A DNA stretch of 64,000 nt from positions 1 to 64,000 of the forward strand of contig JACRAS010000230.1 in the NCBI GenBank assembly GCA_016234705.1. The letters are read 5' to 3'. Below the pieces are notes generated by a model, which saw nothing but the letters and a program-made list of their open reading frames with translations, was not told the origin of the DNA and made no database searches. Shown here piece by piece: positions 3,622-63,256 of the stretch. Each line of letters begins with the position of its first letter. Within the stretch, counting starts at the first letter, position 1. This DNA is from Betaproteobacteria bacterium. GTDB lineage: Bacteria > Pseudomonadota > Gammaproteobacteria > Burkholderiales > SG8-39. A program made the position numbers and the translations under genes.

Positions 3622-3662
3622 GAAGAGTCTGCTTTTGATAGGCAGCGAGAAGCAGATTCTTC
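3622..3662. repeat. Imperfect inverted repeat between convergent genes
   Basis: Between the second MazF gene and the converging transglycosylase gene, the arms GAAGAGTCTGCTT and AAGCAGATTCTTC (one mismatch in 13) enclose a loop of about 15 bases. The position between two gene ends suggests a bidirectional stem-loop terminator without a U-tract, or a remnant of a short palindromic element. Confidence 0.45.
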
Positions 3663-3705
3663 GGCCCGCGGCCTCAGAATGACAATTTTTGGAGGTCCCC
3701 TTTAC

Positions 3706-4836
3706 TCAATCAGAGTTTCCCTTGTTCCACACCCTTTGACCTGCTCGCCGGCCGGACTTTACCGTCCAAAGCTTTTGGCGCGCTTGCTCTTTCCGCATGA
3801 ATTCGTCGAGCCGTTGCTCGAAACCCCGCGCCCGGTCCACCGGAACGATCAGCGGCATGGTTGCGGACGCATTGATTACGTCATAGTTGTAGGCGGGGTT
3901 CAAGATCTTGAACTCCTCGATTTTCATTTCGGCGAACCGCGCCGCCTGGGAAAGGTCGAGGGCGGCGGATCTGGCCACCGTCGTGAAGTATCTCAGGTTC
4001 GGCACGGCGGGCAGTGCGATGCGAAACGAGGCGGGGCTCAGGACGATCTGTTTGACTGCCATCAGCTTCGGAACGTAATTGCGGGTTTCGGCCGGTAATT
4101 GCAGGCTCGCGAAATCCACGGGTAGTCCTTTTGCGCGGTTACGCTCGAGCGCGCGCGCGACCTGATTCTCACCCCAATTGTAGGCGGCAAGCGCAAGCTG
4201 CCAATCACCAAAGGTGTCATGCAGGAACGTAAGGTAGTCGAGCGCAGCGGCGGTAGAGGCGATGATGTCGCGGCGGGCATCGAAGGCGTTGTTCCGCGGC
4301 AGCTTGTATTTATTCGCGGTCTCGGGAATGAATTGCCAGAGGCCGGAGGCCTGCGCCGGGGACAGCGCGAACGGGTCGAAGCCGCTTTCGACGAAAGGCA
4401 GCAGCGCCAGTTCCATCGGCATGCCGCGCTGTTCGATTTCCTCGACGATGTGAAACAGGTAGTAGCGGCTGCGCTCCAGGATTTTCGTCACCAGCTCGGT
4501 GTGCGCCGCATACCAGGCTTCGGACTGCGTTGCTTCCTTGGCGTCGACTCTTGGTAGCGAGAACCCCGCGCGGATGCGGTCCCAGACATCGGCGAAATGC
4601 AGTTTTGCGTTTCGGGCGTCCTTGGCGTCCGGGGCGAAGTTGAGAACCAATGCGGGAAGCGAAGGCTCGGTCGTCGCGGCGCCCGCCGGCGGTACTTCGA
4701 TCGGCGCGACCGGGCGTAGGGCGGCGAGTTCGGGGTCGGGGGTTATGTTGACAAAGGGAGAGGCGACAGACAAAGACGAAGCGCATGACACAAGCGCCAA
4801 TAGCGCGCAGGTGACAAAGTTGGGCTGTAGCGCCAT
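3706..4836 (-). CDS. Lytic murein transglycosylase, MltD-like
   Basis: A 376-residue secreted protein. The N-terminus has a hydrophobic segment ending in LVSC (residues 15-18), a plausible lipobox, although basic residues before it are lacking. The SLT domain carries the catalytic glutamate (about E150) in LLPFVESGFDPFALSPAQAS, then GLWQFIPETA and ALAAYNWGENQVARAL, all typical of MltD. It would cleave peptidoglycan glycan strands with formation of 1,6-anhydro ends. The LysM repeats usually found at the MltD C-terminus are not recognisable. The reading frame stays open upstream to 5499, but that part overlaps the Sel1 gene; ATG 4836 begins just after that gene ends. Confidence 0.88.
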   Translation of the reverse strand: MALQPNFVTCALLALVSCASSLSVASPFVNITPDPELAALRPVAPIEVPPAGAATTEPSLPALVLNFAPDAKDARNAKLHFADVWDRIRAGFSLPRVDAKEATQSEAWYAAHTELVTKILERSRYYLFHIVEEIEQRGMPMELALLPFVESGFDPFALSPAQASGLWQFIPETANKYKLPRNNAFDARRDIIASTAAALDYLTFLHDTFGDWQLALAAYNWGENQVARALERNRAKGLPVDFASLQLPAETRNYVPKLMAVKQIVLSPASFRIALPAVPNLRYFTTVARSAALDLSQAARFAEMKIEEFKILNPAYNYDVINASATMPLIVPVDRARGFEQRLDEFMRKEQARQKLWTVKSGRRAGQRVWNKGNSD

Positions 4837-8169: not shown

Positions 8170-8724
8170 ATGGGGCAACGCGTCTGTTACTTTCTTGCCG
8201 CAGGCTTGCTGGCGATTTTGCCGCGGCTGGCGCACACTCTGGAGGGCGACGATCTGCTCTCGCGCTATCGCCTCGCCTCCGGGGACGTCATTTCCATTTA
8301 TGTCCTCGGCGAGGACGACCTCAAACGCGAGAAGGTGCGGCTCACCGATGCCGGCACGATTCAATATGCCGTGCTCGGCGAAATCCGGGTCAAGGGGCTG
8401 ACCGCGGGAGAGTTGGAGCAAAAGATCACCTCCGGACTCCTCAAGGCGGAGTATCTGAAGAACCCCAAGGTCACCGTGAGCGTAGACGAATACCGCCCGT
8501 TCTTCATCAACGGCGAAGTGTACAAACCCGGAGGTTATCCCTATGTCCCGGGGCTCACCGTGCTCAAGGCGGTATCGCTGGCGGGCGGGTTCAAGGATCG
8601 CGCTTCCAAGAGAAACATGTTCGTGGTGCGCGACGGCACCGCGAACGAGGCGCGCAAAAAAGTGGAACTGGACAGCGCTATCTACCCAGGGGATATCCTG
8701 ACCATCGAAGAGAGCTTCTTCTAG
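8170..8724 (+). CDS. Polysaccharide export protein, Wza/EpsE-like
   Basis: A 184-residue secreted protein: signal sequence, Poly_export domain (LASGDVISIYVLGEDDL), then an SLBB-type domain (FFINGEVYKPGGYPYVPGLT). These form the periplasmic rings of the outer-membrane polysaccharide export channel. It is much shorter than E. coli Wza (about 380 residues) and shows no lipobox cysteine at the cleavage site, as is common for EpsE-type proteins. ATG 8170 fits the signal peptide; ATG 8137 is an upstream alternative. The stop is one base from the autokinase start. Confidence 0.9.
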   Translation: MGQRVCYFLAAGLLAILPRLAHTLEGDDLLSRYRLASGDVISIYVLGEDDLKREKVRLTDAGTIQYAVLGEIRVKGLTAGELEQKITSGLLKAEYLKNPKVTVSVDEYRPFFINGEVYKPGGYPYVPGLTVLKAVSLAGGFKDRASKRNMFVVRDGTANEARKKVELDSAIYPGDILTIEESFF

Positions 8725-40786: not shown

Positions 40787-40863
40787 GGGCCTATAGCTCA
40801 GTTGGTTAGAGCAGAGGACTCATAATCCTTTGGTCCCTGGTTCGAGTCCAGGTGGGCCCACCA
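40787..40863 (+). tRNA. tRNA with CAU anticodon (tRNA-Met elongator or tRNA-Ile2)
   Basis: A 77-base cloverleaf with an encoded CCA end. The acceptor stem GGGCCTA pairs with TGGGCCC (one G-T pair). The D-arm is GCTCAGTTGGTTAGAGC, the anticodon arm AGGACTCATAATCCT has anticodon CAT, and the T-arm is CCTGGTTCGAGTCCAGG. The variable and T-arm region (TTGGTC-CCTGGTTC) is closer to E. coli tRNA-Ile2, whose C34 is changed to lysidine, than to E. coli elongator Met. Without identity-element scoring I leave the choice open. It is not the initiator, which would start with a C-A mismatch. Confidence 0.95.
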
Positions 40864-56410: not shown

Positions 56411-56522
56411 AGGTGCGGCCGGGACGCTGCGTTCGCAAATTCGCCACAACCGCCCTGTCGCGGGCGCCGCGCCCAGGCCCTGTTGATCCATCTCGCGAGC
56501 CGCGCGGCCTATGCAGAAGTTA

Positions 56523-56578
56523 GCGCAGCGCGCAAGTCCGCTCGCGGCATGCAACGGTATTTGAGACGCCGTATATGG
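56523..56578 (+). repeat. Isolated tail fragment of the composite hairpin element
   Basis: About 56 bases match the last 50 bases of the element at 62817-63256, including GGCATGCAACGGT and GAGACGCCGTATATGG, with a few substitutions and a 3-base length difference. It lies in the gap between the ligase and the next gene, which otherwise holds nothing. Confidence 0.65.
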
Positions 56579-60491: not shown

Positions 60492-61020
60492 TTATACGTG
60501 GCGACTTAAATCGCGCCCCCGTCGTTGCAGAGTTTCGATTTTGCGCGGACGAAAAACCGTCCGCGCGGATCGTCGATCTTAAATACAGGTAGGCCCAAGC
60601 CGTGGTTGCCTTTATCCTCTTTATCCTATAACCGTGTTTTTGGTACGGATGCGCTTTTCATCCGTACCAAAAACACGGTTGGCGCGCGCAGCGCGCAATG
60701 GTTGCTCGTCGATAATCCCCAGATATACCGGGGTAGTTCAAACTGCTGCGGCTCCTCTTGCGCGAACGGCGTCCCGTCCGCGCGGATCCTCGATTGTGCA
60801 CGGATGAAAAGCACATCCGTGCACAATCGAGGATCTCGGATAAAGGCAAACCCAAGCCGTCGCCACTCTTATCCTTAGCGCGGCCGTTGGCCGCAACCAA
60901 AAGGACAAAAACATTCGCGCGGATGTGGCAATTGTTGAGGAGTAATTGCATAACCGCGTTTTCTGTACGGATGCGCCTTTTATCCGTACCAAAAATACGG
61001 TTGGCGCGCGTAGCGCGCAA
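60492..61020. repeat. Composite hairpin-rich repeat element, copy 1
   Basis: Directly after the EAL gene stop, 529 bases are built from three hairpin types. Type C: 60543-60566 (perfect 9-bp stem) and 60760-60783 (one mismatch). Type A: 60630-60680 (perfect 22-bp stem, 7-base loop) and 60952-61002 (imperfect 22-bp stem), each followed by GGCGCGCG(C/T)AGCGCGCAA. Type B: 60785-60835 (perfect 22-bp stem). All A and B stems end in CGGATG at the loop. The same order and flanking text return in copy 2. No protein frame is supported here. Confidence 0.8.
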
Positions 61021-61039
61021 ATCCGATAAAGTGCGGAAC

Positions 61040-61951
61040 ATGGCACGTGAAAATCACGCCCACTCCCATGAACCAAAGGGGCACGATCGGGCCTTCGCTT
61101 TTGGCATCGCGCTGAACCTCGGATTCGTCGCGATCGAGTCGGCGTATGGGGTGCTTTCGCATTCGATGGCTCTCCTGGCCGACGCCGGCCATAACCTGAG
61201 CGATGTTCTGGCGCTGGCTCTCGCCTGGGGGGCCAGCGTTTTGGGCCGGCGCGAACCCTCCCAGCGCTTCACTTACGGGCTGGGCAGTTCCTCCATCCTT
61301 GCAGCCCTGGTCAATGCCATGCTGCTGATGCTGGTGGTCGGCGGCATCGCCGTGGAGGCGGTTCAGCGCCTGATGAACCCGGTTCCGGTCGCCACCATGA
61401 CGGTCATCTGGGTGGCCCTGTGCGGGATCGTGGTCAACACGGCGACGGCGCTGTTTTTCCTGCGCGGCCGCGAACACGACTTGAACCTGAGGGGGGCGTT
61501 CCTGCACATGGCGGCCGATGCGGCCGTCTCTCTGGGGGTGGTGCTCGCCGGCGTGGGCATGCTCTACACCGGATGGACCTGGCTCGATCCCGCCATGAGC
61601 CTCGCCATCGCGGCGGTGATTGTCGGCAGCACCTGGGGGCTGCTGCGCGATTCCCTGAATCTGTCGCTGCATGCGGTTCCGCCACGCATCGACACCGAAC
61701 TGATCCGCGGATATTTTTGCGCGCTCGATGGTGTCGCCGAAATCCACGACTTGCACATCTGGGGCATGAGCACAACCGAAACCGCGCTGACGGTGCATCT
61801 GGTCATGCCCGACGGACATCCGAGCGACCGCTTCATCGCCGAGGTCGCGAACGAGTTGCGCCAGCGCTTCGGCGTCGGGCATGCAACGATTCAGGTCGAA
61901 ACCGGCGACGAACTCCATCCCTGCCCGCTCGCGCCGGACCACGTGGTGTAA
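61040..61951 (+). CDS. Cation diffusion facilitator (CzcD/ZitB/DmeF-like)
   Basis: A 303-residue inner-membrane antiporter for divalent metals such as Zn, Co or Cd. It has a His-rich start (ENHAHSHEPKGHD), six membrane helices, the metal-site motifs LLADAGHNLSDVLALAL and LHMAADAAVSLGVV, and a C-terminal cytosolic domain (GVAEIHDLHIWGMSTTETAL). ATG 61040 is 20 bases after the repeat element, so the element supplies the upstream region. It converges with rlmJ. Confidence 0.93.
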   Translation: MARENHAHSHEPKGHDRAFAFGIALNLGFVAIESAYGVLSHSMALLADAGHNLSDVLALALAWGASVLGRREPSQRFTYGLGSSSILAALVNAMLLMLVVGGIAVEAVQRLMNPVPVATMTVIWVALCGIVVNTATALFFLRGREHDLNLRGAFLHMAADAAVSLGVVLAGVGMLYTGWTWLDPAMSLAIAAVIVGSTWGLLRDSLNLSLHAVPPRIDTELIRGYFCALDGVAEIHDLHIWGMSTTETALTVHLVMPDGHPSDRFIAEVANELRQRFGVGHATIQVETGDELHPCPLAPDHVV

Positions 61952-61969
61952 GCCGGGAGCCGTCCCGCT

Positions 61970-62815
61970 CTACGCCAGTTCGCACTCCAGGCTGAAGCCA
62001 GCGGCGGCATCCTGCGCCAGAACCCTGGCGAGATACGGCATGGCAAGCTCCAGCGCTTTCGGCAGCAGCCAAGGCGGGTTCAGAATGAACATGCCGCTGC
62101 CATGCAAGCCGAAGCCTCCGGCCACTGGTTTCTTTACGCTCAAGCTAACGTGCAGCCAATCCTTATGCTGCAGCTGTTTTAGCCGCTCGGGAAACTGGCG
62201 CGACTCGCGCCGCTGCACCTGCGGATACCAGACCGCATAGACCCCAGCGCGGAAACGCTTCTGCGCGTCGCGCAAGGCCGCCAGTACCTGCCGGTAATCG
62301 CCCTTGTCTTCGTAAGACGGATCGATCAGCACCAGAGCGCGGCGCGACGGCGGCGGCAACACGGCCTGCAGGCCGGCAAAGCCGTCGCCGGCCTGCACGA
62401 TCGCGCGCGGGCCGGCGTCGCGAAAATATTGCCGCAGCAGCCGGCTCTCGGTGCTGTGCAACTCGAACATCCGTAGGCGATCCTGCTTGCGCAGCATCTG
62501 CATCGCCAGTTGCGGCGAACCCGGATAGCGGCGCAATACGCCATCGGGATTGAGCGATCGCACTTGTTCGACGTATTCAGCCACCGGCGCAGGCATATCC
62601 TCGCGCGCCCATACGCGCCCAATGCCGCTTGCGTACTCCGCATTCTTCATCGCATAGCCCTCATCCAGAGCGTACGCGGCCGCGCCGGCGTGGGTGTCGA
62701 TAAACCAGAGCGGCTTGTCCTTCTGCGTGAGGTAGCGCAGCAGATGCACCAGGACGACGTGCTTGAGCACGTCGGCGTGCATCCCTGCGTGGAAACCATG
62801 ACGGTAGCTGAGCAT
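61970..62815 (-). CDS. rlmJ: 23S rRNA (adenine2030-N6)-methyltransferase RlmJ
   Basis: A 281-residue RNA methyltransferase: MLSYRHGFHAGMHADVLKHV at the start, DTHAGAAAYAL, the catalytic ALVLIDPSYEDKGDY (DPPY-type motif as DPSY) and SGMFILNPPW. It methylates A2030 of 23S rRNA. The start codon lies one base from the second composite repeat element, so its promoter must lie in or beyond that element. No Shine-Dalgarno is seen. Confidence 0.95.
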   Translation of the reverse strand: MLSYRHGFHAGMHADVLKHVVLVHLLRYLTQKDKPLWFIDTHAGAAAYALDEGYAMKNAEYASGIGRVWAREDMPAPVAEYVEQVRSLNPDGVLRRYPGSPQLAMQMLRKQDRLRMFELHSTESRLLRQYFRDAGPRAIVQAGDGFAGLQAVLPPPSRRALVLIDPSYEDKGDYRQVLAALRDAQKRFRAGVYAVWYPQVQRRESRQFPERLKQLQHKDWLHVSLSVKKPVAGGFGLHGSGMFILNPPWLLPKALELAMPYLARVLAQDAAAGFSLECELA

Positions 62816-62816
62816 C

Positions 62817-63256
62817 TATACGCGGCGAGTCAAAGCGCGCCCCCGTTGCTACAGAGTTTCAATCCTGGCCAACACGCCTACGCTCTGCTTGGTGTTACCC
62901 ATAACCGTGTTTTCCGTGCGGATGCGCTTTTCATCCGCGCGGAAAACACGGTTGGCGCGCGCAGCGCGCAATATTTGATCGCCCGCAACCCGCAAATGCA
63001 TCCGGGCGACTCGCATTTCAGCAGCCCGGCTTGCGCGGACGGCAGCCGTCCGCGCGGATCGTCGATTGCGCACGAATGATGCGGCCATCCGTGCGTAATC
63101 GACGATCTCGTATAGAAGCAACCCCAAGTCGTTTTTGCCTTCAACCATAACCGTGTGTTTGGTACGGATGCTTCATCCGTATCCAAAAGAACGGTTGGCG
63201 CGCGCTGCGCGCAAGTTCGTTCGTGGCATGCAACGGTGTGAGACGCCGTATATGGG
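62817..63256. repeat. Composite hairpin-rich repeat element, copy 2
   Basis: This copy opens with the same text as copy 1 (TATACG-GGCGA-then CGCGCCCCCGT and CAGAGTTTC). It then has type A at 62903-62953 (22-bp stem, one G-T pair), type C at 63033-63055 (perfect 10-bp stem), type B at 63057-63107 (22-bp stem, two mismatches) and type A at 63149-63196 with a shortened loop. It ends with GGCATGCAACGG and GAGACGCCGTATATGG. Several stem positions differ from copy 1 on both arms at once, so pairing is kept. Confidence 0.8.

Follow-up and report, generated by a model that had tools for sequence, protein, structure and literature searches.

What are the two hairpin-rich, non-coding elements near the end of a 64,000-nucleotide stretch of a Burkholderiales genome, and what keeps the arms of their stems matched? 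The stretch (the window) covers positions 1 to 64,000 of contig JACRAS010000230.1 in assembly GCA_016234705.1 of a Betaproteobacteria bacterium, a draft genome of 4.49 Mb in 260 contigs that we call G000. The elements, E1 (60493-61020) and E2 (62817-63252), are both read on the + strand and lie where the original prediction, made from the letters of the window, had located them; it had offered non-autonomous mobile elements, structured RNAs and protein-binding arrays as possible explanations. We consider it highly probable that they belong to a family of non-autonomous transposable elements that resemble miniature inverted-repeat transposable elements (MITEs) and carry BOX-like modules. This first option is borne out by dispersed copies, by conserved imperfect inverted ends and by orthologous places with and without the element.

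Pattern scans of G000 found 30 left ends (S) and 21 right ends (R), with no match to the reversed-pattern control of either scan, and the common plan of the family was derived from these places. A single unit of about 275 bp comprises S, the hairpins C and B, a module D, the hairpin A, a GC palindrome P, and R. The consensus of S is TATACG(T/C)GGCGACTTAAATCGCGCC..GTTGTTGCAGAGTTGCGAT, and R reads GCATGCGACGGTATTTAAGACGCCGTATA, with a short form TTTAAGACGCCGTATA; the two are imperfect inverted repeats (left TATACGTGGCGACTTAAAT; right, read inward, TATACGGCGTCTTAAAT). Between them, the family consensus has C as GCGCGGACG/CGTCCGCGC, B as a hairpin with a 22-bp stem, D as GGATAAAAGCAAC..GTTGTTGCTTTTATCC and P as GGCGCGCGCAGCGCGC, and the A hairpin has a 22-bp stem with the loop CGCTTTT in 45 of 57 cases. 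Additional units are repeats of P-spacer-C-B-D-A, with one to three A units per copy and an A-to-A spacing mostly near 245 bp (range 167-374). The 14 two-ended copies found by one script include eight of 273-279 bp, four of 182-264 bp and two of 436 and 516 bp.

Neither outcome that would have refuted the original prediction, a lack of further copies or of supported pairs, was observed: further copies are many, and the pairs have statistical support. No fewer than 57 distinct A hairpins with P behind them were collected from the regions fetched from G000, an undercount since the collection demanded a 7-nt loop and an exact match to the left arm of P. With one A unit as the query, BLAST gave 87 matches in the genome, both strands of hairpins being counted. 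Hairpin modules follow 29 of the 30 left ends and precede 20 of the 21 right ends. Beyond this genome, a covariance model (R1) matches all 14 genomes of the genus (G000 and 13 others), 28 of 98 genomes of the family and 8 of 26 genera; across 399 genomes drawn from the order it matches three, all within the family, to which at least 13 of the 399 belong. These surveys used stricter filters and scored at most 51 (family) or 12 (order) candidates per genome, and R1 also matches the reverse strand of hairpins, so that matches are not equal to copies. Among up to 51 candidates scored, 11 genomes of the genus give 47-51 matches each, whereas G004 and G012 give 3 each and G007 gives 6. In another genus (g19), genome G083 has its own subfamily with an identical plan, TATACATGGCGACCTAAATCGCG to CTTAAGACGCCGTATATA, and 16 left ends, nine of them in copies with both ends; the reversed-pattern control of the left-end scan gave one match each in G007 and G083. 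One left end in G007 stands without the remaining element (L340, G007:C366:4882-4903). A blastn search of plasmid and phage collections with E2 gave no match, nor did a scan of viral contigs with one exact 24-base pattern. R1 matched none of the genomes from 18 of 80 loci related to the neighbouring EAL gene, a test that shows little.

Target-site duplications and empty sites had been suggested as a further check, and orthologous places both filled and element-free were found, together with one clean empty site that fits duplication of TA. At this site, S143, our genome reads GCAAT, then 279 bp, then TATATCC, and the relative G001 is exactly empty, GCAATTATATCC, with GCAAT joined directly to TATATCC. 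The text after the right ends (CGTATA) of G000 is TA in 12 of 21 cases and TG in five more; in G083 it is TA in eight of nine two-ended copies (counted by eye). An element TACG...CGTATA flanked by a duplicated TA, with a boundary uncertain by two bases, would fit these sequences. The place of E2 was read in 11 relatives: it is filled in G005, G010 and G011 and element-free in the other eight, six of which have TA at the target. At the place of E1, read in eight relatives, G001 and G006 carry a one-unit copy (with a decayed A stem in G006), G005 has both neighbouring genes side by side and no element, and the remaining five have a different upstream gene and are uninformative. Searches with the flanks of copies joined together (7 of 11 joins) covered seven more sites, with 2 relatives' places read for S143, 12 for S161, 9 for S157, 8 for S145, 5 for S136, 6 for S153 and 9 for S158. 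Five of the seven (S157, S145, S136, S153 and S158) are filled in both G000 and G001, and these insertions therefore predate that split.

Unit number also varies at a single site, with E1 having two units in G000 and one in G001 and G006. In the last A hairpin of E1, the left arm of one type is joined to the right arm of another, with three stem mismatches. Since mixed arms and mismatches of this kind are expected from recombination between copies, E1 may have expanded in that way.

The family is short and multicopy, has imperfect terminal inverted repeats and carries no transposase gene, in agreement with the criteria for MITEs. A transposase would most probably act in trans on the S and R ends, inserting the element at TA with duplication of TA, and unit number would be altered by recombination or slippage between repeated units. 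Folding of the hairpins could take place in read-through RNA or in single-stranded DNA, and the match between arms might be maintained by arm-to-arm copying, gene conversion, selection or a mixture of these. Insertion would produce any effect on host genes as a by-product, whether through processing of transcripts by double-strand RNase, attenuation or promoter text at the right end.

Several observations weigh against this account. No autonomous partner with the ends of the family was found among the left and right ends of G000, the copies of G083 or the transposase loci, which is weak evidence because draft genomes break at the element. One left end of G000 (L139) opens into a short stretch without a transposase and the other 29 into hairpin modules. 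An IS630-type parent was considered and rejected: DDE_3 has no match in G000 and 12 in the genus without convincing ends, these loci, some of them cut by contig ends, offering one end likeness with four mismatches (L201) and a bare TATACG in five. The evidence for TA duplication consists of one clean empty site plus the fit elsewhere; E2 has TG in place of the second TA, two of the element-free relatives at its place (G002 and G004) have CA, and changes in the DNA around S161, S153 and S158 leave these three sites without clean junctions. With five of seven sites filled in both genomes, present mobility is not demonstrated. The GC content of the four best plus-strand matches to the model of A and P (the A+P model) is 0.52-0.61; MITEs are usually described as AT-rich, a trait that is typical and not required. 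A tRNA was rejected as an insertion target: the only one in the window is at 40787, far from E1 and E2. Rfam, searched over the window at gathering score, likewise reports a tRNA alone.

The original prediction had also claimed that changes in the stems are compensatory, which is confirmed both among the copies of G000 and between orthologous sites. In the 57 A+P copies (54 distinct rows), 98.7% of cells are paired, compared with 92.5 in shuffles, and 11 pairs are changed on both sides, compared with 6.0, with 92 such cells, compared with 27.6. None of 500 shuffles reaches the observed value on any of five measures, and slid versions all score far lower. Counting G-T as paired, 44 of the 57 A stems are without mismatch. 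P is invariant among these rows, an invariance partly built in for its left arm by the selection of rows, with the right arm free; paired changes in both P and C are seen in genus g13 (two copies, by eye).

Orthologous sites were compared between G000 and G001 in 20 hairpins at 14 sites, where there are 32 left-arm and 33 right-arm differences. These coincide at 17 pairs, all 17 of them still paired, and 10,000 trials of random placement average 2.8 and never exceed 9. At least one compensated pair occurs in 10 of the 20 hairpins, and 7 of the 17 belong to S158 A and S157 B, two hairpins that may be whole replacements. Of 16 site pairs entered, 14 were usable (C92b and C117 gave no hairpins), and a hairpin was excluded if more than two of its pairs were unaligned. 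Stem sites differ at 78 of 1126 positions (6.9%) and flanks at 366 of 5053 (7.2%); the flank figure takes in coding DNA, the class of other element sites is loosely bounded, and C17, whose G001 locus is shared with C104, is out of the orthologous test and still in these counts. Mismatched pairs in the orthologous hairpins (13 in G000, 9 in G001) argue against strict maintenance, as do the decayed A of the G006 orthologue of E1 and the modules lost in other orthologues.

The proposal that the fold is under selection is thus upheld in one part only: the stems covary, and selection as the cause does not follow, given that stem sites differ about as often as flanks, in matched pairs. Selection on the fold is not established because arm-to-arm template switching or gene conversion between copies could also give matched pairs. 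Such a mutational origin, by a template switch between hairpin arms or by conversion among dispersed copies, is compatible with a mobile element and is a serious candidate, although we stop short of calling it probable. It accords with stem sites that vary about as much as the flanks, yet with differences coinciding on both arms. At S145, the A hairpin differs only by the replacement of a single pair; C247a and C247b have one replaced pair and one one-sided change; and in the A hairpin of S158 four pairs and the loop differ, as from whole replacement. A long inverted duplication centred on the B hairpin of L352 in G083 points the same way, unless it is an assembly fault. That locus (G083:C100, about 3650-3900) is a near-perfect inverted duplication of the left end, C, part of B and about 20 bp of flank, near a contig end, and would reflect either a fold-back event or an assembly fault. 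Template switching is disfavoured by the lack of any inverted loop among the 57 A hairpins of G000 (seven-base loops only), loop inversion being described as an expected by-product of the process (PMC8604942). The C stems, moreover, keep their sequence among the copies of G000, and correction by itself would not account for this.

A structured RNA useful to the host, or a riboregulatory untranslated element, with its fold selected at each place, would likewise be compatible with a mobile element, and we regard it as rather unlikely. The covariation over 54 distinct copies and the excess of compensated pairs between G000 and G001 both suit it. Old insertions retain the A hairpin, at S157 in G000, G001, G005, G010 and G013 and at S158 in G000, G001, G009 and G005, and the C stems are near-constant among the copies of G000, with the paired change in g13 seen by eye. 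However, presence is patchy among congeners, and modules are missing or decayed: C-B in G013 and G008 at S157, D-A-P in G006 at S145, and the A stem of G006 at E1. Neighbouring genes are of mixed orientation, with 12 codirectional, 3 divergent and 2 convergent cases by rough calling of open reading frames (ORFs) at 17 places (20 less 3 dropped for distance, and including L139, which has no hairpins). The paired changes include transversions, for which there is no G-U intermediate, namely T-A to A-T at C164a and T-A to G-C at S157. We tentatively suggest that hairpin arms are kept matched long after insertion and that settled, dispersed copies evolve by paired changes. The element may then be either a structured nucleic acid that has been domesticated for a role in the host or a natural recorder of template switches from arm to arm, that is, of concerted evolution inside single hairpins.

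A single unit is partly palindromic as a whole. Seven single-unit copies aligned with their own reverse complements scored 84-136 in six cases and 41 in the seventh, and each exceeded the maximum of its own 50 single-base shuffles (maxima 21-42). The C-B part of E1 matches the A+P model with 64.4 bits on the opposite strand and 36.5 on the same strand; for C-B of E2, the opposite strand alone is listed (46.4 bits). C-B is likely an inverted relative of A-P, a kinship unproved because the hairpins resemble their own reverse complements, A itself matching the reversed model (50.1 and 46.8 bits). The loop text (AAAAGCA in B, CGCTTTT in A) and the side on which the GC-rich mini-hairpin lies agree with it, in a survey for the B loop and C stem figures that counts every B hairpin on both strands. 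Near the start of one contig, a left end is followed by an inverted A-P unit (L138 / L006, G000:C46:1-200). At L139 (G000:C51, about 8400-8605), about 170 bp without hairpin modules separate a left end from right-end-like text; this may be a relative with a different interior.

Movement as a repetitive extragenic palindromic (REP) or REPIN-like element by a RAYT-type tyrosine (Y1) transposase is improbable: C-B and A-P do resemble an inverted hairpin pair, as in REPIN, and Y1 transposase has one match in G000 and at least one in 11 of the 14 genomes of the genus, but no element modules lie within 3.3 kb around the Y1 gene of G000 (L184, G000:C260:37801-38127, a 205 aa frame), G003 and G009 match the A+P model (50 and 47 matches) yet have no Y1 match, both genomes being incomplete, and conserved left and right ends and TA insertion are not part of REPs as described in PMC3733652.

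Among known systems, the BOX elements of Streptococcus are described as multicopy, with the structure boxA-boxB(n)-boxC, predicted stem-loops and MITE features (PMC3049150). The likeness is one of plan, terminal modules around a variable number of middle modules, with sequences uncompared; our family differs in its repeated unit, mostly near 245 bp with several hairpins, its TATACG ends, its GC-richness and its non-Streptococcus host. The Correia/NEMIS repeats of Neisseria, which come in two forms, of about 107 and 155 bp, and have inverted ends of 24 bp (PMC2229807), are similarly small and non-autonomous, with 5'-TA ends, inverted ends, target duplication and folded transcripts (PMC2229807, PMC10969869), but the portions of these accounts compared here describe no chain of repeated hairpin units. 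On this comparison by description, we do not place the family within BOX or Correia/NEMIS. The BrickBuilt MITE of Porphyromonas gingivalis also has a repeated middle with leader and tail parts, but that middle is described as a 23-nt tandem repeat without spacers (PMC4596501) and not as a hairpin chain. REPs are given as 20-40 bp long with a tetranucleotide tag (PMC3733652); REPINs, bacterial interspersed mosaic elements (BIMEs) and GTAG- or CGTC-tagged REPs share the hairpins, often paired, and the many copies (PMC3733652, PMC3116915), whereas here 22 bp stems lie within a 275 bp element bearing its own ends. No constant tag beside A was seen by eye at the left-end places of G000, where no tag scan was run. 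The titles and starts of abstracts returned by searches of open-access full text, some of them directed at other questions, contain no description of this family, which is not proof of its being unpublished.

The features of the two elements are collected in Table 1. The original prediction had given them a shared start, shared end motifs and a shared internal order; the common start holds, the end motif does not, as E1 has no right end, and E1 has an added C hairpin. Its 22-bp A and B stems with CGGATG at the loop recur in our inverted-repeat reading of both elements. The order in E2 is left end, A, P palindrome, spacer hairpin, C, B, D, A, P and right end. E1 stops past the P palindrome, and its G001 and G006 orthologues have the same boundary. 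Predicted folding is more stable than in dinucleotide shuffles, with z of -8.3 for E2 (RNA) and -11.4 for E1 (DNA), and none of 100 shuffles is equally stable.

Table 1. Features of E1, E2 and a remnant copy, with positions in the window
Feature	Positions	Strand	Basis
E1, two-unit copy, left end only	60493..61020	+	direct reading; G001/G006 orthologues one-unit, identical right boundary
Left end (S) of E1, TATACGTGGCGACTTAAATCGCGCC...	60493..60539	+	direct repeat with E2; genome pattern scan
First C hairpin of E1, GCGCGGACG/CGTCCGCGC	60543..60566	+	direct reading
First A hairpin of E1, perfect 22-bp stem, 7-nt loop	60630..60680	+	inverted repeat; A+P model 101.6 bits
P palindrome of E1, GGCGCGCGCAGCGCGCAA	60681..60698	+	A+P alignment
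Short CCCC/GGGG hairpin, variable spacer of E1	60717..60733	+	direct reading
Second C hairpin of E1	60760..60783	+	inverted repeat
B hairpin of E1	60785..60835	+	inverted repeat; model search
D of E1, GGATAAAG...CTTATCC inverted repeat, between B and A	60838..60874	+	direct reading; seen in numerous copies by eye
Second A hairpin of E1, imperfect	60952..61002	+	A+P model 79.7 bits
Second P palindrome, E1 terminus	61003..61020	+	comparison with orthologues
E2, two-unit copy, both ends, 436 bp	62817..63252	+	direct reading; relatives' loci
Left end (S) of E2	62817..62863	+	direct repeat; 3 mismatches vs left-end pattern
First A hairpin of E2	62903..62953	+	inverted repeat; A+P model 99.3 bits
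C hairpin of E2	63033..63055	+	direct repeat with E1
B hairpin of E2	63057..63107	+	inverted repeat
Second A hairpin of E2, short loop, imperfect	63149..63196	+	left arm as direct repeat; A+P model 58.8 bits
Right end (R) of E2, GAGACGCCGTATA	63240..63252	+	direct reading; two-ended copy script
Remnant of third copy, P-like text and right end only	about 56511..56575	+	right-end scan

Both elements are closely fitted between genes, which are named here from their ORFs. E1 starts 3 nt past the stop of a putative EAL-domain gene and ends about 20 nt from the likely start of a putative cation-efflux gene. At its left boundary E2 lies 1 nt from the start codon of the putative rlmJ gene (61970-62815, minus strand), and beyond its right boundary the stop of a putative MazG-like gene, on the opposite strand, follows after 33 nt. 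ORFs running across E1 and E2 are taken as chance. At S158 (L286 and its orthologues), the right end yields CGCCGTATATAAT before the downstream gene and merges with TATAAT text before that gene in G000, G001, G005, G009 and G010; five element-free genomes read GCGAATATAAT there. From this we infer a possible promoter role for the S158 right end.

Contigs ending inside copies, at least 15 of them in G000, include C252, C201, C18, C210, C104, C17, C247, C183, C22, C107, C100, C215, C16, C117, C204, C244, C60 and C125. The contig pairs C104/C17 and C18/C117 each join within one G001 contig.

A practical effect of the element is that it breaks draft assemblies. With this family, small mobile repeats built as hairpin chains are added to a group of draft genomes, and as many as six genomes of a single genus carry copies at orthologous sites. 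The family also cautions against taking strong covariation in bacterial repeats as proof of a functional RNA. Whether paired stem changes arise by selection or by mutation is a question that covariation studies usually leave open, and the orthologous set makes it testable.

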